Position numbers and translations under genes: made by a program | Shown: one piece after another, positions 411-10,980 of the stretch | Position numbering within the stretch: position 1 is the first letter of the stretch | How the letters are laid out: each line of letters opens with the position of its first letter | Source of the DNA: an uncultured Ruminococcus sp. | GTDB taxonomy: Bacteria > Bacillota > Clostridia > Oscillospirales > Acutalibacteraceae | DNA length: 11,182 nucleotides | Assembly: GCA_902802975.1 (NCBI GenBank) | Contig: CADCOF010000204.1 | Location: 1 to 11,182 of the forward strand | Direction of reading: 5' to 3' | The notes under the pieces: generated by a model | Seen by the model: the letters and a program-made list of their open reading frames with translations, nothing else | Told to the model about the DNA's origin: nothing | Databases searched by the model: none

Positions 411-3400
411 TCAAGCTTTGATCTGACGCATGATAAAGGGGTCTTTTATCTTGTCGTCATTTGAGAACATGAGCATTTTTGTTATGATCTCTGCAGTTTT
501 CGGATCTTCATCAAGGAACGGCAGGAATATCTTACTCTTTTTCCCGCTTGATACAGCGACAACATTTATCTGATGACCGCCGACCATATGTATAACTCCG
601 CTTCCGAGATGAATAGTATACTTCGCCCATTTTCCGTCGATCATAATATGATTTTTGTCAACAGAAACATTCTTCAAACCGAAAAGCTTGACGTTGTAAT
701 CCACGATAACAGAACGCATTTCTATTGTTGAGTGACTTGTTTCGGGGTCTACGCCTCCGGCATGGGCAACACTGACGGCAAGATCAACATCACGCATTAC
801 TTCGGAGTATATGATATCGGGAATTTCGCTGATCTTTAACGGTGCATACGTTTTTCTGTCATAGAAACACACGCCGTCTATCGTTGGTGCTTCAATATCG
901 GCAGGACTGAACCAGTCTGCAACGGCATACAAAGACGCAATTACATTGTCATCATAATATATCTTCTGTAAGCCGTCCTCATAATCCGCTACCCAGCGTC
1001 TTGTTTTCAGTGCGCCGACAGTCCGGCTTGCTTGTATCTGATAACCCGTGAACATAAGCGACATTGTCTTCTCGCTTTCCTCCGGCAGTTTTACGTACAA
1101 TTCTCTGAAAACCTGACGGAACGGCTGGAATTTTCCTTCATTTGAACCACGTTCAAGCACAATGCTTTGGAAATCCGACCATACGCCTTTTTTGTACAGA
1201 TCATACGGGTGAGCGGCGCGAAGCAGAGTATCATTGTCAAATTTGTGACGGGTTCCTTTTTCATCGATCAATACGCCGTTATCGATAAATCCGCAGATAT
1301 ACTCGTCTCCCGTTGTGACAAATACAAGACTCTCCATGATACAGCGTGTAACCGGGTTTTCGCACAGCGCGTTAAGCTCCCCAAGAGTAAATTTGCTGCA
1401 TTCCTCCATTGCAAGCTCGAACATTTTCACCGTTCGGCTGTACTGCTGCTTGAGCTTTTCGTAAAACTCCTTCACTTCCAAAAACTCTTCATTTTTCTTA
1501 AGCGGTGCAGGCGTTGATTTGAGTGCTTTTCCCTTTTTCTCAAACGTCATGGACGGTTTGCCTAATTTATCAACAACTATCTGCACTTCGTATTCACCGA
1601 TGCTTGTTTTGTCAAAGAAACGCTTGTTATGGCGGACGAGCTCTGTTTCCATAGAGAGTGTGAGACGCGTTTCGTCGCTGTAGCCCGCTGCTGCGGCAAG
1701 GTTTTTCAGGGCGTATTTTACCGCCTCGCCCTCGCTTTGTCGTCGCTGTGCGCCGAATTTTTTGCTCTGCTTCAAAAACGCCTGGATAAACTCGTATCGC
1801 TGCAAAATGTCGGCGTTTTCTTTTGACGGAATGATTCCGAGTGCCAAAAGTAAATCTTTGTTTCGCTTGTCCCTGATGATGTTCTCTGTTTCTGCAATGT
1901 CCATTTTACCCAAAGCAGCATCGGCAAATTTTCGCGCTCTTGTGTGCATATTGCTTGATGAAATATACTTTGCACTCTTATATATACGTTCAAACAGTTT
2001 ATCGCCAAGTTGAGTATAAACGTCCATAAACCACTTAGCATCAAAGCAGCCGCCGTTCAGCTCTTCTTTTGTGAGCGGAGTATATTTCGCGATTATCGCA
2101 AAACGCTTGTCACTGATAAACTCCGCAGTGTGTGCCATAAAATAATAACAGCCGCTCCTGAACCCTTCTATACCCAGATGTTCGCCGATAAAATCTATCC
2201 ACTGTACCGCAAACATAGCTACTTCGATTAGACGCTCGTCGCTGATGTGAGACTCCTTCGCTTTTTTGCTGAATATTTCGGCTGTTTCACCTTCGGCAGG
2301 ATAACAAACGGAAAGCAAATGACCCAAACTTTCTTTTTTGGACATTGTTCCGCTGTAATAATAACTTCTTGCTTTCAGCGTTTCGTTTCCAAGAGCTTTC
2401 AGAATCTCCATCAAACGGTCAATACCGTATATTTTTTTGATGCTCGGAACAGAATGCGTAAATACAGTCTCACTGTCGCCTCGCTTAAGTTCCGTATTAA
2501 GAACAAGCTCGATAACATTCGATAAAACTTCATGAGAATTGCGATACAGGTCGCTGTCCTTTGGTATTTCATCGTTTTCGGTCAGCTTTTTCCCTTCAAT
2601 CTCAAGTATTTTTTCTATGTCTCTGCGTGTATAATACGAAAGATTGTTTTCGGTCACGCTGCTAAGTGATGAAATCGATTTAGGCAGTCCTATGTACTCG
2701 AACATGATCTTGTATATGTCATCTTTGGTAATTATGCCATGCGCAAAAGCGGTAAGATATGTGTATATACCAAGTGTAAGATTGCTGCTGCCGCCTAAAT
2801 GTCTGCTCTCTAATTCGTTGTTTATTTCATGCTCTTTCAAGAGAAGTTCATGAAGGATACGGAAATTTGTATCGAAATCCTTCTCTATATAGCCTGCCAG
2901 TTTAGCTATCATCAAAGACGGCGCACGCTTTGACAAATACAGAGCAGGCTGACTGTACCAATACGGCCTTTTCGACTCGTTATCGCGCGTCAGAATATAT
3001 GTGTCCATATCAAGACAGCGAACGAAATACAGCACACAGTTTTGCACAACTTCATACGGCAACTCAAGTTCGAATTCGCTGAGTATGCAGTCCAAAACAC
3101 AGCTTCTCAACTGACTGAAGGAACTTTCAAGAAAACGTTTGTCCTTGACTCCAAGTTCTTTGTCATAGTCAAAATCGGCGATAGTTCCGAAAACTTCCTT
3201 CTGCGTTTTGTCATAATGCTTTTGGGATTCCTTTGAAAGAGAAGCAGGAGAACGATCTCTGTTATGATACAGATACAGTGACCAAAAACGCTGAGGAGTT
3301 TTGATCGATTCGCGGTAATACTTCGCCCAAAGCTCATGAAAAGGCGTTACTTCCCATATTTTTTGACGCGCTCTCTCCTCTGCCACAGACGACCATTTGC

Positions 3401-5519
3401 ATGGTAAGCTTCCGAAATTTCCAAGCAGACGTTCTTCGCCATTGTAGCCGGTAAATTCAAGATTTGAGTTTTCTTCAATAAGCGACATCAAGTCCAACTC
3501 CATTTTCACAAGCTCTTTGTGCGGCACGGAAAAAAACTTTTGTACAATCTTGATATCGGGTTTCACATTAGCCGGCGCAATAGATGTATTTGTATCGTAC
3601 AGACCATACCCGTTTTCAGCGTTAAGCTCCTCGGAATCCTTTTTGCCAACTATTTCGTTAATGAGAATTCTTTCACGATCGGTCGGAGACTCTATGGAAC
3701 CTGCTGCTGCGATAGATTTGGAAAAATCATCATCTTTGTATTCGGACATTGCAAACATCAACAAATCGAGTGCGGCTAATCTTATGTTTTCTTCTTTCGA
3801 TGTCATCATCCGCAGTATAGACAATTTCAAATCCGAGGGAGAGCGTTTTTTGAGAAGTTCCAGAACGCCGCTGCGGATATCGGCAGATTTATATTTTGCG
3901 AAACCTTCAATTATCTGATACTCGCTGTCTGACATTTTCAGATCACACAGTATCTTGAGCGAAGTAGAGCGTGTATAGCCACCTTTGTCAGCGACTGCTT
4001 TAATCACGATATTTCTGAGAGACTGATTATCGCTGCCCTTCTCTTTTAATACAACTCCGATAACACTTATAATATCGGAGCGAGTATCGACGTCGAAATC
4101 CGTCATGCGTTCACCTAAGGAACAAAGTTTGTCTTCATCGTTGAGTATAATAGCGGCACCGAGCATACACTGCAAAATACGGCTTTTTGTTATTTCACCC
4201 GAAAGCCACGGGAAAACAAACGGCGCGTATTCAATCTTCTTTTTAGACATGGATCTATACAATCCGTCCATGATATCATAATGCTTTTGTGCTGCAGATT
4301 TATCCTTGAAAAATGGCTTGGCATATTGATCAATGTGCCGATAATCGTTTTTGCAGGAGTAATTGTAGTAGATATACATGGGGTAGTACATAGCAAAAAC
4401 TTTTGTATCAAGCGGGTGAGTTTCTATCACTTCGGACGCAATACGGTAAGTAATGCTCTTTATCTCGACTTGGCACATGAAATAACCGATAGTCAAAAGC
4501 TGTACATCATTTTCACAGCCTCGCAATTCCAGGATAACATTCATTGCATCAGCTATATCATAAAAGCTAAGTCCCCACAAGCCACAGTAGATATGTACCG
4601 CGTCTGTTGTATTGATAAGCTCCATGCAGTTCTCACGGCTTTTGACGGCAGCGACCATATCGTCAAGCACCTTTTCGGCAGTTCTGTCTGGTTCGCCCTC
4701 CCAACAAATTCCGCACCATGTCGCAACGGCGCGTTTCACCGCAGGAAAACGGATAAGGTTATTATCCTTGATAGTGTTTAGTATCGATATGAATGCCGCG
4801 ATGGTTCCGCAGTCGGCACTTTCGCAGATAGACTGACGCAGCCCCTCCTGAAGACGGGCAGCCACAAGCAGACCGCACAAAAGCGTGTGCAGCTCGGTAT
4901 TATCCGACATAATTACGGAGCGAATACAACGATAAGATAACACATTCGTGTTGTTTTCGCTTGTTATCATATCGTGCAGTATACCGATAACTTCTTCATC
5001 ACCGGAATTGATGCGCTCGGCAATAAATGTATCTGTATATCTTAAACTAAGATATACAGAACGTTTTATATCATCCTCCCACTCATCACATACAATGGGC
5101 TTGAGGTTTCCGATACTCAATCCAAGTCGGCCAACAATATAATAATAATTCATCAGCTTAAAAATTCTCTGCGCATGAGGAAATACATCACGGCTGCGAT
5201 AGCTTCTTCTGTAATATGAGCGGCTGTACTGATAGCGCACCATGTTATCGCAAGCACGATAGAAGTCATTGACAAACTCGCTGGGCACGAGAATTTCGAC
5301 AACTTTCCCGTACTCTCTCTTTACAAATTCGGACAACACATCTATATGCTGTCTTTTGATCTCAACGTAATATTTTGAGTCTCTGTCAAACGAGTCATCT
5401 GCACCATACATAACAAAATCCAGTGCCTTGCGCTCTTTTTCCGAAAGACACTTTAGTTCTTTTTTGTGAGTATCGATAAATTTCTCATTATACTCTTTGA
5501 TGATGTCATAGCTGTACAA
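411..5519 (-). CDS. Giant DUF4132-domain protein (1702 aa)
   Basis: This is a large, probably cytoplasmic protein with no signal peptide or membrane segment. Its biochemical role is unknown, as for the DUF4132 family generally. Residues about 440-600 look like helical HEAT/ARM-type repeats. The DUF4132 core is around 1290-1480, with a typical 'GKALKSTPAPLKKNEE' stretch at 1330-1345. The conserved C-terminal block is 1500-1702, including VAHAGGVDPE (1584-1593), HSTIEMR (1596-1602) and FLPFLDEDPKTAEI (1665-1678). The N-terminal third is unassigned and has a Tyr/Arg/Ser-rich patch at 94-111. I see no WGR domain. It is longer than the E. coli relatives YehI and MolR/YehF, which are about 1200 residues as I recall. 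The start is TTG (5517-5519), supported by an AAAGGAGGAA site 7 nt upstream. The first internal Met is residue 37. The gene follows the ubiquitin-like gene by 13 nt. The family call is firm; the function is not. Confidence 0.93.
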   Translation of the reverse strand: MYSYDIIKEYNEKFIDTHKKELKCLSEKERKALDFVMYGADDSFDRDSKYYVEIKRQHIDVLSEFVKREYGKVVEILVPSEFVNDFYRACDNMVRYQYSRSYYRRSYRSRDVFPHAQRIFKLMNYYYIVGRLGLSIGNLKPIVCDEWEDDIKRSVYLSLRYTDTFIAERINSGDEEVIGILHDMITSENNTNVLSYRCIRSVIMSDNTELHTLLCGLLVAARLQEGLRQSICESADCGTIAAFISILNTIKDNNLIRFPAVKRAVATWCGICWEGEPDRTAEKVLDDMVAAVKSRENCMELINTTDAVHIYCGLWGLSFYDIADAMNVILELRGCENDVQLLTIGYFMCQVEIKSITYRIASEVIETHPLDTKVFAMYYPMYIYYNYSCKNDYRHIDQYAKPFFKDKSAAQKHYDIMDGLYRSMSKKKIEYAPFVFPWLSGEITKSRILQCMLGAAIILNDEDKLCSLGERMTDFDVDTRSDIISVIGVVLKEKGSDNQSLRNIVIKAVADKGGYTRSTSLKILCDLKMSDSEYQIIEGFAKYKSADIRSGVLELLKKRSPSDLKLSILRMMTSKEENIRLAALDLLMFAMSEYKDDDFSKSIAAAGSIESPTDRERILINEIVGKKDSEELNAENGYGLYDTNTSIAPANVKPDIKIVQKFFSVPHKELVKMELDLMSLIEENSNLEFTGYNGEERLLGNFGSLPCKWSSVAEERARQKIWEVTPFHELWAKYYRESIKTPQRFWSLYLYHNRDRSPASLSKESQKHYDKTQKEVFGTIADFDYDKELGVKDKRFLESSFSQLRSCVLDCILSEFELELPYEVVQNCVLYFVRCLDMDTYILTRDNESKRPYWYSQPALYLSKRAPSLMIAKLAGYIEKDFDTNFRILHELLLKEHEINNELESRHLGGSSNLTLGIYTYLTAFAHGIITKDDIYKIMFEYIGLPKSISSLSSVTENNLSYYTRRDIEKILEIEGKKLTENDEIPKDSDLYRNSHEVLSNVIELVLNTELKRGDSETVFTHSVPSIKKIYGIDRLMEILKALGNETLKARSYYYSGTMSKKESLGHLLSVCYPAEGETAEIFSKKAKESHISDERLIEVAMFAVQWIDFIGEHLGIEGFRSGCYYFMAHTAEFISDKRFAIIAKYTPLTKEELNGGCFDAKWFMDVYTQLGDKLFERIYKSAKYISSSNMHTRARKFADAALGKMDIAETENIIRDKRNKDLLLALGIIPSKENADILQRYEFIQAFLKQSKKFGAQRRQSEGEAVKYALKNLAAAAGYSDETRLTLSMETELVRHNKRFFDKTSIGEYEVQIVVDKLGKPSMTFEKKGKALKSTPAPLKKNEEFLEVKEFYEKLKQQYSRTVKMFELAMEECSKFTLGELNALCENPVTRCIMESLVFVTTGDEYICGFIDNGVLIDEKGTRHKFDNDTLLRAAHPYDLYKKGVWSDFQSIVLERGSNEGKFQPFRQVFRELYVKLPEESEKTMSLMFTGYQIQASRTVGALKTRRWVADYEDGLQKIYYDDNVIASLYAVADWFSPADIEAPTIDGVCFYDRKTYAPLKISEIPDIIYSEVMRDVDLAVSVAHAGGVDPETSHSTIEMRSVIVDYNVKLFGLKNVSVDKNHIMIDGKWAKYTIHLGSGVIHMVGGHQINVVAVSSGKKSKIFLPFLDEDPKTAEIITKMLMFSNDDKIKDPFIMRQIKA

Positions 5520-5524
5520 ATTTC

Positions 5525-5534
5525 TTCCTCCTTT
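5525..5534 (-). promoter_or_regulatory. Ribosome binding site fixing a TTG start
   Basis: Read on the minus strand this is AAAGGAGGAA, a near-perfect Shine-Dalgarno sequence with 7 nt between GGAGG and the TTG start at 5519. It begins inside the TAA stop codon (5533-5535) of the upstream gene. A ribosome finishing the small protein could therefore re-initiate on the DUF4132 gene, which suggests translational coupling. Confidence 0.85.
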
Positions 5535-5955
5535 ACCATATTCTGCCTGAAAGCATAACCAGCTTGATGAATGTTAGACTTTCTGTTGATTTTATATCGA
5601 CAAATTCATCGAGAGATTCAAGCTTTTTGTCATCTGCAAAAATAACTACGATCCCGTCTTCAAACGCTTCCAAAGCATTATCGACAGAGGTCTGCAGGTT
5701 GGGTAACTTTTCTCCGTAATTTACGTTGAATGCCACTTTTCCAAGCTGAGCTTTATTTTCAATGTCGACAGGCGACAACACATTAAAAAGCTCGGACGTT
5801 TCACGGCGTTCTATATATTCATCGACGCAGTTTTTCACCGCCGCAGTGATAAGCTGACGCACTGTAGATATGTTATCATCAAACATCATGCTTCTTGTTG
5901 TGACCTTGTTTTTTTTGCCTGATACAGTTTTTACATTGATTTTTACTTCTACCAT
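5533..5955 (-). CDS. Small ubiquitin-like (beta-grasp) protein upstream of DUF4132
   Basis: This is a 140-residue soluble protein with no signal peptide or membrane segment and no assigned function. Residues 3-14 (VKINVKTVSGKK) and 31-45 match the first strands and helix of ubiquitin in pattern. Residues 104-135 (VIFADDKKLESLDEF, then STESLTFIKLVML) resemble the ubiquitin stretch IFAGKQLEDGRTLSDY followed by STLHLVL. Between them, about residues 46-100, is an insertion with a second predicted helix. The C-terminus is SGRIW, with no diglycine, so conjugation to targets is unlikely without processing. It starts at ATG with TAGGTGA 6 nt upstream. It lies 13 nt before the DUF4132 gene, so the two proteins probably work together. 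I recall similar small proteins ending in a 'TFIRL...GR.W' pattern in other Clostridia. The gene is certain; the ubiquitin-like fold is inferred by eye. Confidence 0.85.
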   Translation of the reverse strand: MVEVKINVKTVSGKKNKVTTRSMMFDDNISTVRQLITAAVKNCVDEYIERRETSELFNVLSPVDIENKAQLGKVAFNVNYGEKLPNLQTSVDNALEAFEDGIVVIFADDKKLESLDEFVDIKSTESLTFIKLVMLSGRIW

Positions 5956-5983: not shown

Positions 5984-6032
5984 GTGTGGAGTTTGGAGAG
6001 TTGAGAGTGGAGTTGGCAGTTGGTAGCTGAAA
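5984..6032. repeat. Degenerate heptanucleotide repeat array, 7 units
   Basis: The stretch divides into seven consecutive 7-mers, each starting with G and ending with A: GTGTGGA, GTTTGGA, GAGTTGA, GAGTGGA, GTTGGCA, GTTGGTA, GCTGAAA. The 7-nt period is clear although units differ by several bases. It resembles the short tandem heptamer repeats known between genes in some bacteria. Its role is unknown. Confidence 0.6.
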
Positions 6033-6078
6033 TTGCACTCTCAACTTTAAGCTTTGAGCTGTATTGTATTTTCCAAAC
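5991..6078. repeat. Nested inverted repeat (foldback) ending at the transglutaminase stop codon
   Basis: AGTTGAGAGTG (5999-6009) pairs perfectly over 11 bp with CACTCTCAACT (6036-6046). Outside it, GTTTGGA (5991-5997) pairs with TCCAAAC (6072-6078). Inside it, 6016-6021 can pair with 6031-6036 with one G-U pair, competing for base 6036. A small AGCT-TTG-AGCT hairpin sits at 6050-6060. The right arm ends directly beside the stop codon of the transglutaminase gene (6079-6081). It may be a miniature insertion-like element or a 3' mRNA structure. No T-run follows on the minus strand, so it is not a classical terminator. Confidence 0.55.
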
Positions 6079-8940
6079 TTACTCTAAAAACAGTCCGTAC
6101 TTAATGATAGCCGCTATTGCCTTTCTGCGCGAATCATATGCGGCTCTTGACAGCTTGCATATCACTTTATACATCATGCAGAGTTCTTCTTCGGAAGGCG
6201 GTGTGCGTCCGAATTTCGCTTTTAGCGCAGTCGCTGTAAAGAGTTTATAATCTGCAGCCGATACGCCTCTGATTAATTTGCTTATTCTTAATGAGAATTC
6301 TTCTTCTCCCTGATCTTTGGATTTTTTGATCCGCTGCAGTCTCAGCAGGAAAAGTGAATACGAGTACATCGATAACGCTCTTCTGCGTTCATCTCCCTTT
6401 GTTAAATACAATATACGCAGTTTGATCAAAGATACCCGCAGCAAAACAGCCGATGCGGCGATAACAAATATTTTCAGCAGCATCATAAGGAAGCTTTTCA
6501 GTGCCTTGAGCAATTTTGAAGGCGGCGCAGTAACAGTGCCATCTGAGGAAGTTGAAATGCTTTCGCTCTCGGATTCGGTGTCGCTGTCTGTATCGCTTTC
6601 GGTATCACTGTCCGTTTCCGTATCGATGTTTGTATCGCTGTCTGTTTCTAAGTCTGTATCGTCTCCGGTATCACTATCAGTTTCGGCATTTTCGGGTGTT
6701 GTATTCTCCTCGGGAATATCACCGCCGATGTAAGGAGGCGTAAATTCCACTGGTATCCATCCCATCAATGGATAATATACCTCAACCCACGCATGGGAAT
6801 TGCTGTCCGGAATCGGGTGATATCCTCCGTTAATTGCGGTTTTTGGAGAAAGATCCTTCTTTGAAACTATATAGCCCTCACAGTAGCGCGTAGGTATTCC
6901 CGCACGCCTTAGCATCAGCGCAGCCACCGTTGCGAAATGCACGCAATAACCTTTATGGTTCTCGTTGAGAAAATACCCGACAAAATCCCTGTCTCGCGGC
7001 GTTTTGCCGGGACTGAGCGTATATTGTGCCTGATCCGAAAGATACTGTCTGATAGTAGACTCCATGCTGTCATAATAGCCTTTGATATAAAACATTCCGT
7101 TGTTATCTCCGACATAAGTATTGTTACTTTGAAAGATCATTTCAATGGAATCATCAAAATATTCAGGCAAATACGAATCTATATTTTCGGGGTAATCAAG
7201 ATAATTTTCAAGAACAAATTGGCGGTATATTTTCTCGTTATCCAAGAAATCACGATAATCATCTTCGTTTGCTGCGTCTTCCCCTGTCAAATAACTGCTG
7301 TATTCCAAAAAATCTCCATCATGGAGAATACTGTACAAGCATTGATTAGGGTTGCCCGTATTGACGTAATCAATTATACTTGAATTTAATATATACTGAT
7401 ATTCAGATGTATCCATATATATGTCTTCATATATATTTTCGTCATCAGGGGTACTTATTTCACTCCAGCTTCCATATGAACCGATATATGCACTTGGGTA
7501 ATCGAAAGAATAATCAACAACACGCTCCCGGTAATCAGACAATCCACTGCTGAGTGATACGGAAAAAGATCTGTCGTATTTTGCCTTTGCGGTGCCATTG
7601 ACTATCTCATCGGAATACTCAGGCAGCATATATCCCGCAGTAAGAAATGTTTTGGGATTGATCGCTTCGTTTACGATTTCAATATCGTATGTGTGAAGAG
7701 GATAAAACAAATCATTATAGTAATTTGTTCCATCATAAAAATTGATCGCATTTGGTTGAAACAGCTGAGGATAATATCCGTTTTCGACCAGCATATCCCA
7801 ATTGTTAAAAGAATTTACTTTACGTGGCGAAAGAGATTTCCAGCTTTTTCCATTAAATACATCTGCCGAAAAAGCTCTCAGATACTGAATATATGCGCGG
7901 TCGCTTTTGATCTTGAACATTGTTTCACCGGAATAATGAAGATCACCGAGCTTTGACACCTGACCGTGATTAAGATTATCCGATGTACCGAAACCCATCT
8001 GTTCAAAAAATGTACCCGAGGCGGCATATTCCGCATAATGCAGGATATCACGTCCAAATTGATCAAGTTCCTTGCTGCGCTTGTAATTTGTGTAATCGAA
8101 TACATTATACATAAATAGAGTTATCAATCCGGCGAAAATAAACATAACCGCTGTTTGTTCCGCTGCCGAATATGCAGAGTATTTTCCTGAAATGCGTATC
8201 GTTTTGCCAAAATGCAGCACAATATCGCGCTTGCCTCCGATGCGGAAATCGGATACGTTGATCACATACGTCACAATGCACATAAGAAATGCGATCAAAA
8301 ACCAAAACTCGCCCACAAGAACATTCAGGATAAGTGGAACGCTGCAGATAGACATTACCGCTACGGCATAGCAAATCGAACTGCACCGACGCACGCCCAA
8401 AAATGACATCACCAAAGTCAATCCGAACACAACAGCAGACATAAACCATACCAATTCTTTTTTGGGATCATCCGCATCGTAAAACACAAGATAATACCGC
8501 TGTGGAGATACGCCTTCTGATACAAGTATGCTGTACATTACACGGTTTGCCGCACGGATAAAACCATTTGCTATAAGTTTGTACCGCGGGATAAATTCAA
8601 CTGCGGCGATGATCAGAATTACCGCCATCACGGCTGCATATTTCTTTTTTATACAGTGTAATCCGGAAATGATCAAACTGCTAAAAAAAGCTACGCTAAA
8701 GAATAATGTGATTTCCCGCTCGGAGAATGAAAACGAGATTGGTTCGGAAGAACCGCTGCCAAAAAGCCCGAAGCTTTTTGCGTAAATAATCATCAGACAT
8801 AACAACGTCACACTAACTATCAAACAGGCCAATATGCTCATAACAGGATTATCATTTTTGTCGGTCTTTATGCCGATAATTCCATTTAATTTGAGTATAC
8901 GAGGCTTTTTGCCAATAAATTTATCGTTATTTTTTGTCAA
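6079..8940 (-). CDS. TgpA-like membrane transglutaminase/cysteine-protease-fold protein (953 aa)
   Basis: This is a membrane protein with an extracytoplasmic transglutaminase-like domain, expected to cleave or crosslink a cell-surface protein; the substrate is unknown. About seven hydrophobic segments lie at 35-57, 77-95, 100-118, 163-182, 187-208, 210-229 and 263-280. A long outer region (281-812) follows, then one more membrane segment (813-836) and a cytoplasmic tail of DUF4129 type (about 840-930). The catalytic pattern is visible: Cys666 in KGYCVHFA, His716 in SHAWVEVYY, and the third position as Glu732 in VEFTPPY, where many relatives have Asp. A 48-residue Asp/Glu/Ser/Thr-rich linker (753-800) joins the domain to the last membrane segment. 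The start is TTG, with a GGAGGTGA site 9 nt upstream, and it overlaps the DUF58 stop by 4 nt (TTGA). It is the third gene of the MoxR-DUF58-transglutaminase operon. Confidence 0.94.
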   Translation of the reverse strand: MTKNNDKFIGKKPRILKLNGIIGIKTDKNDNPVMSILACLIVSVTLLCLMIIYAKSFGLFGSGSSEPISFSFSEREITLFFSVAFFSSLIISGLHCIKKKYAAVMAVILIIAAVEFIPRYKLIANGFIRAANRVMYSILVSEGVSPQRYYLVFYDADDPKKELVWFMSAVVFGLTLVMSFLGVRRCSSICYAVAVMSICSVPLILNVLVGEFWFLIAFLMCIVTYVINVSDFRIGGKRDIVLHFGKTIRISGKYSAYSAAEQTAVMFIFAGLITLFMYNVFDYTNYKRSKELDQFGRDILHYAEYAASGTFFEQMGFGTSDNLNHGQVSKLGDLHYSGETMFKIKSDRAYIQYLRAFSADVFNGKSWKSLSPRKVNSFNNWDMLVENGYYPQLFQPNAINFYDGTNYYNDLFYPLHTYDIEIVNEAINPKTFLTAGYMLPEYSDEIVNGTAKAKYDRSFSVSLSSGLSDYRERVVDYSFDYPSAYIGSYGSWSEISTPDDENIYEDIYMDTSEYQYILNSSIIDYVNTGNPNQCLYSILHDGDFLEYSSYLTGEDAANEDDYRDFLDNEKIYRQFVLENYLDYPENIDSYLPEYFDDSIEMIFQSNNTYVGDNNGMFYIKGYYDSMESTIRQYLSDQAQYTLSPGKTPRDRDFVGYFLNENHKGYCVHFATVAALMLRRAGIPTRYCEGYIVSKKDLSPKTAINGGYHPIPDSNSHAWVEVYYPLMGWIPVEFTPPYIGGDIPEENTTPENAETDSDTGDDTDLETDSDTNIDTETDSDTESDTDSDTESESESISTSSDGTVTAPPSKLLKALKSFLMMLLKIFVIAASAVLLRVSLIKLRILYLTKGDERRRALSMYSYSLFLLRLQRIKKSKDQGEEEFSLRISKLIRGVSAADYKLFTATALKAKFGRTPPSEEELCMMYKVICKLSRAAYDSRRKAIAAIIKYGLFLE
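6541..6684 (-). repeat. Low-complexity repeat encoding an acidic Ser/Thr linker
   Basis: This part of the transglutaminase gene encodes residues 753-800, almost only Asp, Glu, Ser and Thr in short SDT/ESD/ETD units. The DNA is repetitive: the 11-mer TCGCTGTCTGT occurs at 6581-6591 and 6635-6645 on the plus strand, 54 nt apart and in the same frame. It is probably a flexible, negatively charged spacer outside the membrane, and its length may vary between strains by slippage. Confidence 0.75.
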
Positions 8941-10043
8941 TTCGAGTCACCTCCGATAGAGTTGTCTTTTACGTCGATACACATCATCGAACTATCGGGG
9001 TGAAAATCATCGTTCATATGTGACGAATCATAAATATAGTAAACTGCTGCGTCACTGTGATAGACAGATTTATATGAGTGATATGTAAGTCCGTTACCTT
9101 TCGGCAAAGGATTAGACAAAACCATTTTCATCAACAGTGATATATCTTCTGTTTTTTGTATCTTGATTTCAATATTTTTATCAGCTGTATTCGAAAAGAG
9201 GCTTACATTAAACGGCTTGTTCTGCTCGATCAATCTGAGTGCCAGCTGCACAAACACCGCAAGGAGATTGTCGGAAAGCTTCTTTTTTTCTTCAACAGAT
9301 ACATCTTCATAAATCGATGTTTCGATCAAAACACGAATATTCTCCTCAATAGGACAGCTGAATTCCTTAACTATCAGCATATCACGCTTTGTACTGAGCG
9401 GCCAATGAACATTTCTCAGGTCATCGCCCTCACGATAATCCCGAAGCTCGAAAACCTGAGACCTATCGTCACCTTTTACCGTGTCCGAAAATATATCACT
9501 GTCCGGTATAATGTGCGAGGCGGCATTGGCGTTAAGTTCCTGCGGTTTTGACGACGGTGTTATCAGCAATTCTACAAATTCACGGCTGGCTCGTATGGGA
9601 ATTGCTAGCAGTCCAAAGCTGTCACACACTTTAACTTTTAATATCCTGCCACGTATACAAGCAGCATACGGAGTTTCAAGCGGAACATAAAGCCGTCTTT
9701 TATCGTGGGCGGCAAGTGCGGAACAAACAGATACACGAAGCTCCCCCGTATCGCATGGATCGCTGAAGCCTAGTTTTACGATCAGTTTTCCGACCGGCAG
9801 TACAAAAGTATTTTCAATAGTTACGCAAAACTCCACTATTCTTTTTGATGTATTTGCATGGGAATGCGTCTTGCTTAGAGCAGCAGTAACATTTCTCGAT
9901 ACCATAACGCACTGAACAAAGCTCACGGAACACAGAGCGCACACCAACACTATTGAAAATAAAGCCACATATGAATCGCAGTATACATAGAAAAATAACA
10001 GTACAACCGACGCTGCAAGCAGTGCAATTCTGTTTTTTATCAT
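8937..10043 (-). CDS. DUF58 membrane-anchored protein (368 aa)
   Basis: DUF58 proteins accompany MoxR ATPases, carry a vWA-like fold and probably act as adaptors between the ATPase and envelope targets. Two hydrophobic segments (about 5-22 and 26-46) anchor the N-terminus. Residues about 65-150 form a beta-rich region. The signature is at 202-228: DYREGDD (202-208), VHWPLSTKRD (212-221) and IVKEF (224-228). After it, where the vWA strand usually ends in an Asp-x-Ser metal site, this protein has ETS (241-243), so metal binding may be altered. I chose the ATG at 10043 because AGAGGT lies 7 nt upstream and the hydrophobic segment then starts at once. The longer frame from 10088 would add 15 charged residues overlapping MoxR and has no visible site of its own. 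The gene starts 4 nt after the MoxR stop. Confidence 0.93.
   Translation of the reverse strand: MIKNRIALLAASVVLLFFYVYCDSYVALFSIVLVCALCSVSFVQCVMVSRNVTAALSKTHSHANTSKRIVEFCVTIENTFVLPVGKLIVKLGFSDPCDTGELRVSVCSALAAHDKRRLYVPLETPYAACIRGRILKVKVCDSFGLLAIPIRASREFVELLITPSSKPQELNANAASHIIPDSDIFSDTVKGDDRSQVFELRDYREGDDLRNVHWPLSTKRDMLIVKEFSCPIEENIRVLIETSIYEDVSVEEKKKLSDNLLAVFVQLALRLIEQNKPFNVSLFSNTADKNIEIKIQKTEDISLLMKMVLSNPLPKGNGLTYHSYKSVYHSDAAVYYIYDSSHMNDDFHPDSSMMCIDVKDNSIGGDSN
8947..8954 (-). promoter_or_regulatory. Ribosome binding site fixing the transglutaminase TTG start
   Basis: The minus strand reads GGAGGTGA, a full Shine-Dalgarno match, with 9 nt between GGAGG and the TTG at 8938-8940. The site lies inside the last codons of the DUF58 gene, whose TGA stop shares three bases with the TTG start. 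This arrangement fits coupled translation. Confidence 0.8.
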
Positions 10044-10047
10044 TATA

Positions 10048-10980
10048 TCAACCTCTGACCGTGGGCGCGTCCACTCTTCGCAAAACACCGTTTAAAACAT
10101 CTTCACAGGATTCGTCCGACATTTTTGCCTGCGCACTGAGAATTATACGGTGAGAACACACATCAATAAAGGTTTTACTGACATCTTCGGGGATAACATA
10201 ATCTCGTTTATGCAGGAATGCGCGGGCTGCTGACATATTCGAAAGCGCAAGCGCACCTCTGGGGCTTACGCCAAGCGTGATCTTTGAGTCCTCTCTTGTG
10301 GCGTTGACAAGGCGCACAATGTAATCCAAAATAGCGTCGCTCCGAAATACATTCTCAACTTTATTTCGCATTTCCATAATGTCATACGCAGACGCTGCGG
10401 GGCGTACAAGGTCAAGCGGATTGTAGCCCTGACGATCACGAAGCATGGCGATCTCACTTTCAATATTCGGATACCCCATGGTCAATCTGACTGTAAATCT
10501 GTCTGTCTGCGATTCCGGCAAAGGCAGCGCACCGGCAGTTCCGACATGGTTTTGTGTTGCGATAACCATATGGGGTTCGGGACACTGATGAGTTACTCCG
10601 TCAACTGTAACGGCGTGTTCCTCCATCAATTCCAAAAGCGCAGACTGAGTTTTACTGGATGTTCTGTTTATCTCATCTGCAAGCAAAAGATTACAAAGAC
10701 CTGCGCCCTTTTTGTATTCAAATTTTCCTGTTGATTTATTATATATAGTAAAGCCTGTAATATCAGAAGGCATTACGTCCGGAGTAAACTGCACGCGCTT
10801 GCATTCAAGCTGCATAGCTTTTGAAAACGCGAGAGCCATTGTAGTTTTGCCCACACCGGGTATATCCTCGATCAGAATATTTCCTCCGGCCAATATTACT
10901 TCCATTACTTTTACAAGAATATCGTCTTTTCCTACAACTACTTTCTTAACTTCTTTTATGATATTTATAGCCTGTTTCAT
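10048..10980 (-). CDS. MoxR-family AAA+ ATPase (310 aa)
   Basis: This is a cytoplasmic ATPase of the MoxR family, chaperone-like machines that activate or assemble partner proteins, usually through vWA or DUF58 proteins encoded next to them. Walker A is EDIPGVGKT (38-46), Walker B is LLLADEINR (98-106), sensor 1 ends in Asn144 of IATQN, and the arginine finger is Arg161 in ESQTDRF. A GVSPRGA sensor 2 motif lies in the C-terminal lid. Length and motif order are normal for the family, so the protein should be active. The ATG start has AAGAGG 6 nt upstream. It is the first gene after the promoter at 11036-11064, and the DUF58 and transglutaminase genes follow it almost without gaps. The symbol moxR is often used loosely for this family, so I leave it blank. 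Confidence 0.96.
   Translation of the reverse strand: MKQAINIIKEVKKVVVGKDDILVKVMEVILAGGNILIEDIPGVGKTTMALAFSKAMQLECKRVQFTPDVMPSDITGFTIYNKSTGKFEYKKGAGLCNLLLADEINRTSSKTQSALLELMEEHAVTVDGVTHQCPEPHMVIATQNHVGTAGALPLPESQTDRFTVRLTMGYPNIESEIAMLRDRQGYNPLDLVRPAASAYDIMEMRNKVENVFRSDAILDYIVRLVNATREDSKITLGVSPRGALALSNMSAARAFLHKRDYVIPEDVSKTFIDVCSHRIILSAQAKMSDESCEDVLNGVLRRVDAPTVRG

Follow-up and report, generated by a model that had tools for sequence, protein, structure and literature searches.

A small protein of predicted ubiquitin fold paired with DUF5724-DUF4132-DUF7737 giants in Clostridia, Bacteroidota and Deinococcus

We analyzed an 11,182 nt stretch of DNA from an uncultured Ruminococcus sp. (contig CADCOF010000204.1; hereafter the window), which carries on its reverse strand the gene of a small protein with predicted ubiquitin fold and, directly downstream, the gene of a giant protein comprising DUF5724, DUF4132 and DUF7737 (Table 1). 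The TAA stop codon of the small gene (5533–5535) directly adjoins the ribosome binding site of the giant, as the original prediction made from the sequence alone had noted, and lies 13 nt from the giant's TTG. The translation likewise contains the described N-terminal VKTVSGKK and ends in SGRIW instead of di-glycine; near the C-terminus it reads VIFADDKKLESLDEF and SLTFIKLVML. That prediction interpreted the small protein as a ubiquitin-like partner of the giant. In our analysis, the interpretation is supported by the modelled beta-grasp fold and by the pairing of the two genes, whereas the claimed resemblance to ubiquitin in sequence does not exceed chance.

Table 1 Features of the window, all on the reverse strand.
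Feature	Position	Strand	Basis
Small protein of predicted ubiquitin fold, 140 aa, ATG start, TAA stop	5533..5955	(-)	Reading frame, homologues, structure prediction
Insertion, residues 53-103, between helix 1 and strand 3 of the predicted beta-grasp, partly helical	5647..5799	(-)	
C-terminal tail LSGRIW (family: LAGRMW and similar; Deinococcus: LAGG)	5536..5553	(-)	
AGGAGG, ribosome binding site of the giant, immediately past the stop codon of the small gene	5527..5532	(-)	
Giant, 1702 aa, TTG start (5517-5519)	411..5519	(-)	
DUF5724 region (PF18991), giant residues 45-1290, E 2e-289	1650..5387	(-)	Pfam
DUF4132 domain (PF13569), giant residues 1330-1509, E 6e-32	993..1532	(-)	Pfam
DUF7737 domain (PF24879), giant residues 1599-1700, E 6e-30, strongly conserved part	420..725	(-)	Pfam
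MoxR ATPase, DUF58 protein and TgpA-like transglutaminase genes in a row	6079-10980	(-)	Pfam

A genome scan using one genome per species yielded 151 confirmed genomic loci of the small gene, the best 80 of which entered the locus analyses (81 together with the window). The adjacency to DUF4132 giants, which had been suggested as a check on homologues, was found throughout: in 78/78 testable loci among these 80, a giant lies downstream on the same strand. Based on tblastn, this was seen in 75/80 loci; in three others (L039, L050 and L054) the N-terminus of the giant runs off the contig end, and these were counted as paired, while L061 and L064 were left out, their contigs ending 26 and 131 nt past the small gene. 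In many of the 78 paired loci the contig ends within the giant, so that its completeness is covered for part of the loci only. The gap between the small frame and the giant, measured mechanically in 62 loci, ranges from -20 to +32 nt in 52 of them and amounts to -50, -38 and +52 to +623 nt in the rest. In addition, the distance matrices of the two proteins are correlated (r = 0.90, n = 62; 0/1000 Mantel permutations), which fits a co-inherited unit but alone is no proof of contact. No third gene is constant beside the pair, as the largest other cluster of neighbours comprises 15/81 loci on mixed strands. Two loci show a different arrangement. At L026 (3664-8724), an intact small gene is followed by a giant reduced to about 75 residues and then by an unrelated 1558-aa gene on the opposite strand; here, most of the giant looks to have been replaced. 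At L032 (258-10749), one small gene is flanked by two giants, and the contig end cuts the region upstream of the first.

The relationship was also assessed from the side of the giants. Sampling 245 genomes of the window's own class, 398 of its phylum and 148 of the phylum Bacteroidota gave 17 DUF5724 giants above the cut-off, each in a different genome, and the small gene was found upstream in 15 of the 16 testable cases (three from the class, eight more from the phylum and four from Bacteroidota). This count leaves out a giant that runs into the contig end (G238) and two DUF5724 matches below the cut-off (G193 and G405). In the sole miss (G008; L091, contig 15, 2535-4859), a remnant matching giant residues 1008-1700 only is preceded by unrelated genes and no small gene. 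Because this giant is a 5'-truncated remnant, the miss leaves the odds of the explanation favored below unchanged. By their position, the small proteins appear to be cognate partners of DUF5724-DUF4132-DUF7737 giants, and we propose them here as a family.

This family is conserved. The first protein search returned 48 homologues at E ≤ 1e-3 (the query's own entry included), and profile searches gave 580 at E ≤ 0.1 and 665 at E ≤ 0.01, at most 120 being listed for each search. Judged by their titles, the scan loci stem mainly from rumen and gut Clostridia, plus Parabacteroides. The plasmid collection added Bacteroides finegoldii, four Deinococcus replicons and a homologue from Novosphingobium humi, which was found by hidden Markov model (HMM) on a fetched locus, with a match confined to the C-terminal half of the model (positions 85-136; E 7e-6 in a search of eight loci); its stop codon overlaps the start of an 842-aa DUF4132-DUF7737 gene. 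Before other DUF4132 genes, namely those of Nonomuraea, Burkholderia, Acetobacter, Iodobacter and E. coli, the HMM gave no credible match to the small gene, and the open reading frame upstream of the Acetobacter gene proved unrelated. A Parabacteroides locus (L112) contains two neighbouring DUF4132 genes of another class, at which the HMM detected no small ubiquitin-like gene. One Clostridia-like pair (L048) is located on a contig labelled Candidatus Gastranaerophilales, for which a binning error or a transfer is possible.

The AlphaFold model of the small protein shows a beta-hairpin, a long helix and further strands on one sheet. Structure prediction, a check proposed earlier, points to a beta-grasp fold, although the entries that Foldseek itself ranked highest were PI3K chains, with root-mean-square deviations of 8-11 over the whole alignment. 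Helix 1 is predicted to extend to residue 52 and the next strand to begin at 104, in agreement with the insertion of about 50 residues that had been noticed in the sequence. The close ubiquitin pattern claimed for the C-terminal third was not borne out: in Smith-Waterman comparisons with human ubiquitin, the score of residues 100-140 was equalled by 1133/2000 shuffles, that of residues 1-53 was reached in 104/2000 and that of the whole protein in 381/2000, and none of 58 family members resembled human ubiquitin at p ≤ 0.01 (300 shuffles each). The best local alignments, with VKTVSG on VKTLTG for the whole protein and that of residues 100-140, are at chance level, yet their register is structurally equivalent. 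Nor did the suggested check against Pfam ubiquitin-like families give a significant match for the window protein or the 58 members, Urm1 appearing in 1/58 at E = 0.03. When the family profile was compared with that of 21 ThiS/MoaD-type sequences taken from related genomes, the probability was 1.5%, and the relation was rejected; by halves, the N-terminal score was reached in 1/60 column shuffles and the C-terminal one in 12/60. Across Pfam, solved structures, the ThiS/MoaD profile and the ubiquitin shuffles, no significant sequence or profile relation to any known ubiquitin-like (Ubl) family was found. Further candidates were discarded, including SEO_N (sole Pfam match of the window protein, E = 0.024; not credible), DUF4768 (most frequent Pfam match, 5/58 members, best 8e-5), which was inconsistent across members and therefore taken as chance, and a viral protein (best solved-structure match of the family profile in the sequence search, E 0.17). 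NCBIfam gave no match to the window small protein.

For the giant, residues about 918-1300 were modelled as HEAT/ARM-like helical hairpins. The fold search revealed nothing beyond helical repeats, with the DUF4132/DUF7737 part barely covered, and the best sequence match among solved structures (E 0.14) was rejected. In the open-access literature searched, DUF4132 is scarcely treated and DUF5724 was not found.

Experimental data are available for a homologous pair in Deinococcus radiodurans, DRA0165-DRA0166, in which both genes are adjacent and in the same order as in the window. DRA0165, also known as SEP068184 (PMC9650054), is homologous to the window small protein over its full length (26% identity) and DRA0166 to the giant (34%), while DRA0165 ends in di-glycine and the window protein in SGRIW. 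The operon is preceded by a DdrO operator and is damage-induced: the RDRM operator GGTTATGCTATTTACATAAC was reported at -83 of DRA0165, 'putatively in operon with drA0166', DdrO depletion strongly upregulated the operon, and mitomycin C raised DRA0166-V5 in the wild type, not in an irrE mutant (PMC8533742). We find this operator in the DNA before the pair at about -83 (L094, 8928-8947). Levels of SEP068184 were further reported to be raised by gamma rays and H2O2 (PMC9650054). The same study reports finding no RDRM in front of DRA0165 and describes the protein as restricted to Deinococcus; the first statement is contradicted by the table of PMC8533742 and by the DNA, the second by the genome-scan loci and the homology to the window. 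The Deinococcus module is part of the DNA-damage (RDR) regulon. Among five loci checked, the full RDRM motif is present in 3/4 Deinococcus loci, degenerate in D. ficus, where only the RDRM-like palindrome TTCTGCTATTTACAGAA occurs (L098, upstream of 4867), and absent in Bacteroides. As to damage control outside Deinococcus, GAACnnnnGTTC was found within 300 nt upstream in 2/86 sequences (expected 0.34). Because this motif is not general, we claim damage induction for Deinococcus only. In the open-access text covered of the two Deinococcus papers on DRA0165/DRA0166, the pair is not described as a ubiquitin-like protein and its partner; PMC9650054 notes a MoaD- and SAMP1-like predicted structure for DRA0165, but the word 'ubiquitin' is absent from its main text.

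These data bear on two alternative explanations. According to the proposal of PMC9650054, DRA0165-type proteins could be redox regulators whose main targets are other proteins, for instance thioredoxin, and this would make the giant an operon bystander. In support, DRA0165 was pulled down with Trx1 and binds the thioredoxin DRA0164, and its deletion strain showed a higher antioxidant capacity as well as increased catalase activity and katA expression (PMC9650054). Across the family, however, the constant neighbour is the giant and not thioredoxin, which is annotated beside the pair only in D. radiodurans, one of the four listed Deinococcus loci (the clostridial neighbours were clustered, unannotated), and we consider this explanation very improbable. 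Alternatively, the small protein might act as an antitoxin, inhibitor or dedicated chaperone that holds a harmful giant inactive or soluble until stress releases it, as in a conflict or defence module. The two-gene layout with the small gene first would suit such a role, and so would the patchy distribution (DUF5724 matches at E ≤ 1e-3 in 6/245 and 10/398 genomes) and the damaged giants, truncated beside a large unrelated gene in L026 and lacking the first 1000 residues in G008. Against it, D. radiodurans remains viable without DRA0165 and its survival under H2O2 improves, the DRA0166 transcript being unaffected (PMC9650054). Because the deletion is tolerated and even protective under H2O2, the opposite of antitoxin loss, it argues against this role. 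Moreover, the sole PADLOC match of the small protein, AbiEi (E = 0.012), is not credible, no relatives were found on viral contigs, which were scanned with six peptides and one tail peptide only, and the giant was not found in phages. Altogether, we regard a guarding function as unlikely.

A further alternative arises from the C-terminal tail. Ten columns are invariant in 58 diverse small proteins, five of them within the last seven residues, and 79 of 81 scan sequences end in GRMW or GRIW (of the other two, one continues for a single residue past GRMW and one has a frame disrupted ahead of the tail); both figures are inflated, as the tail [VT]MLAGR[MI]W was one of the two peptides used for the scan. 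An unbiased sample is provided by the 15 small proteins found via their giants, with the tail ignored in the search. Here, the glycine is kept in 15/15 and the last residue is tryptophan in 12/15 (GRLW 4, GRMW 3, GSYW 2, GRIW, GRAW and GTYW 1 each). The remaining ends are GAIF, GRMG and GSCFSYVF, once each, and the protein ending in GRMG adjoins a giant with an in-frame stop. The broader tally covers 239 small proteins that were listed or translated (five from our own translations of fetched loci), not all homologues found: 216 end in GRxW and 21 in di-glycine, all of the latter being of one Deinococcus-like type. These 21, as well as all four fetched Deinococcus loci, end in ...LTALAGG or in variants of the first letters with ALAGG, and the Novosphingobium homologue ends in ...LTPLKGG; in the other listed relatives and in the window protein (LSGRIW), di-glycine is absent. 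The glycine, conserved across both tail types, is thus the fixed point of the tail, the sequences ending either in ubiquitin's di-glycine or in a mostly aromatic end. The tail is conserved although AlphaFold fails to place it, residues 134-138 of the model having a predicted local distance difference test (pLDDT) score below 50.

Such tails might indicate a modifier or carrier. The di-glycine forms would be genuine Ubl modifiers or sulphur carriers, with a ThiF/MoeB-type enzyme activating their terminal glycine and the giant serving as cognate ligase, acceptor or enzyme; the clostridial forms would have lost activation or would require trimming after the conserved glycine. The exact di-glycine of the 21 listed relatives, four of them translated from named Deinococcus replicons, favors this possibility, as do its recurrence in the diverged Novosphingobium homologue before a DUF4132-DUF7737 gene, the glycine kept in all small proteins found via giants and two ThiF-type genes in the window's genome. 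In D. radiodurans, a JAMM protease cleaves MoaD-MoaE, and the authors suspect a Ubl system (PMC8832034). On the other hand, the prevailing GRxW end is not adenylatable as such, and it is conserved, unlike a discarded propeptide, which would drift. No E1 or JAMM gene appears linked to the pair, because the giant is the only gene to adjoin the small gene repeatedly in over 15/81 loci (neighbour clusters are unannotated), and Prok-JAB was not found in the window's genome, which is 83.6% complete. In addition, C-tagged DRA0165, in which the di-glycine is covered, shares 157 interactors with the N-tagged form (PMC9650054). We consider a modifier or carrier role unlikely, including its clostridial variant. 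Equally speculative is an evolutionary version, in which the DRA0165 family comprises ubiquitin-like modifiers or sulphur carriers induced by stress, and the DUF4132-DUF7737 region of the dedicated giant makes chemical use of their di-glycine; in Clostridia and Bacteroidota, di-glycine would have given way to a fixed aromatic docking tail (GRMW, GSYW, GTYW), turning the modifier into a permanent subunit. If true, this would represent a previously unrecognised bacterial ubiquitin-like system.

The explanation we favor, at a probability of about 0.6, regards the small protein as a beta-grasp subunit dedicated to the DUF5724-DUF4132-DUF7737 giant, with a tail that docks and is needed for activity. 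Giant and subunit would be made together from the coupled two-gene module, and the folded part of the small protein would bind the giant. The flexible conserved tail (LAGRMW-like, or LAGG in Deinococcus) may then enter a pocket of the giant, which probably lies in the conserved alpha/beta region at the C-terminus of the latter, and this insertion would be required for a putative enzymatic activity. The genes, their pairing and co-divergence, the conservation of the tail, the predicted fold and, through the work of others, the damage induction are shown here, whereas the physical complex, the docking of the tail and an enzymatic activity of the giant are inferred from them. MoaD, whose tail enters MoaE, provides a model for such docking (PMC8832034). 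A dedicated subunit would join three loose ends, namely a small family without Pfam or NCBIfam match, a little-studied giant DUF family and a Deinococcus damage operon. DRA0165 and DRA0166 were earlier studied separately, and the subunit explanation predicts that DRA0165 acts through DRA0166. The two tail types among homologues, reactive-looking di-glycine and aromatic GRxW, make the question of modifier or subunit answerable from natural variants.

Upstream of the pair, the window carries on the same strand a MoxR-DUF58-TgpA-like transglutaminase row, a familiar gene trio that ends 123 nt before the small gene. By tblastn at E ≤ 1e-4, none of these genes had a match in any of the 80 other loci. 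With the trio unmatched in these loci, many of which are short on that side, no conserved MoxR and vWA/DUF58 partner was seen, and a ternary conflict system of the MoxR-vWA type was rejected. The 123-nt gap contains an inverted repeat with 16-nt arms of 88% complementarity (5999-6046), and no promoter- or terminator-like site was found in it. Within the transglutaminase gene, positions 6563-6689 consist mostly of a repeat with 12-nt period encoding a serine/aspartate-rich linker.

Finally, the pair can be compared with other known systems. The E. coli MolR/YehI-type WGR-DUF4132 proteins have DUF4132 in common with the window giant but no DUF5724 or DUF7737 match. In one E. coli record, the interval from metG to the first DUF4132 gene and that separating the two DUF4132 genes contain no annotated gene, and searching with the family HMM gave no credible match on this stretch, downstream of which lies a 101-aa hypothetical gene. 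YukD/EsaB are small bacterial ubiquitin-like proteins and in this respect resemble the window protein; their family PF08817 is unmatched by it at E ≤ 5 and absent among the 25 of 44 families listed for the 58 members. Compared with ubiquitin and eukaryotic Ubl domains (HOIL-1L, BAG1, TBCE), the window protein is at chance level in sequence and lacks the di-glycine, and no linked conjugation gene was found. The small beta-grasp sulphur carriers and modifiers MoaD, ThiS, SAMP1 and Urm1 show no significant sequence or profile match to the small family, which differs from them by its insertion of about 50 residues and, in most listed members, by an aromatic end after the glycine. The partners differ as well: MoaD and ThiS systems use MoaE or ThiG, whereas the partner here is a giant with predicted helical repeats.
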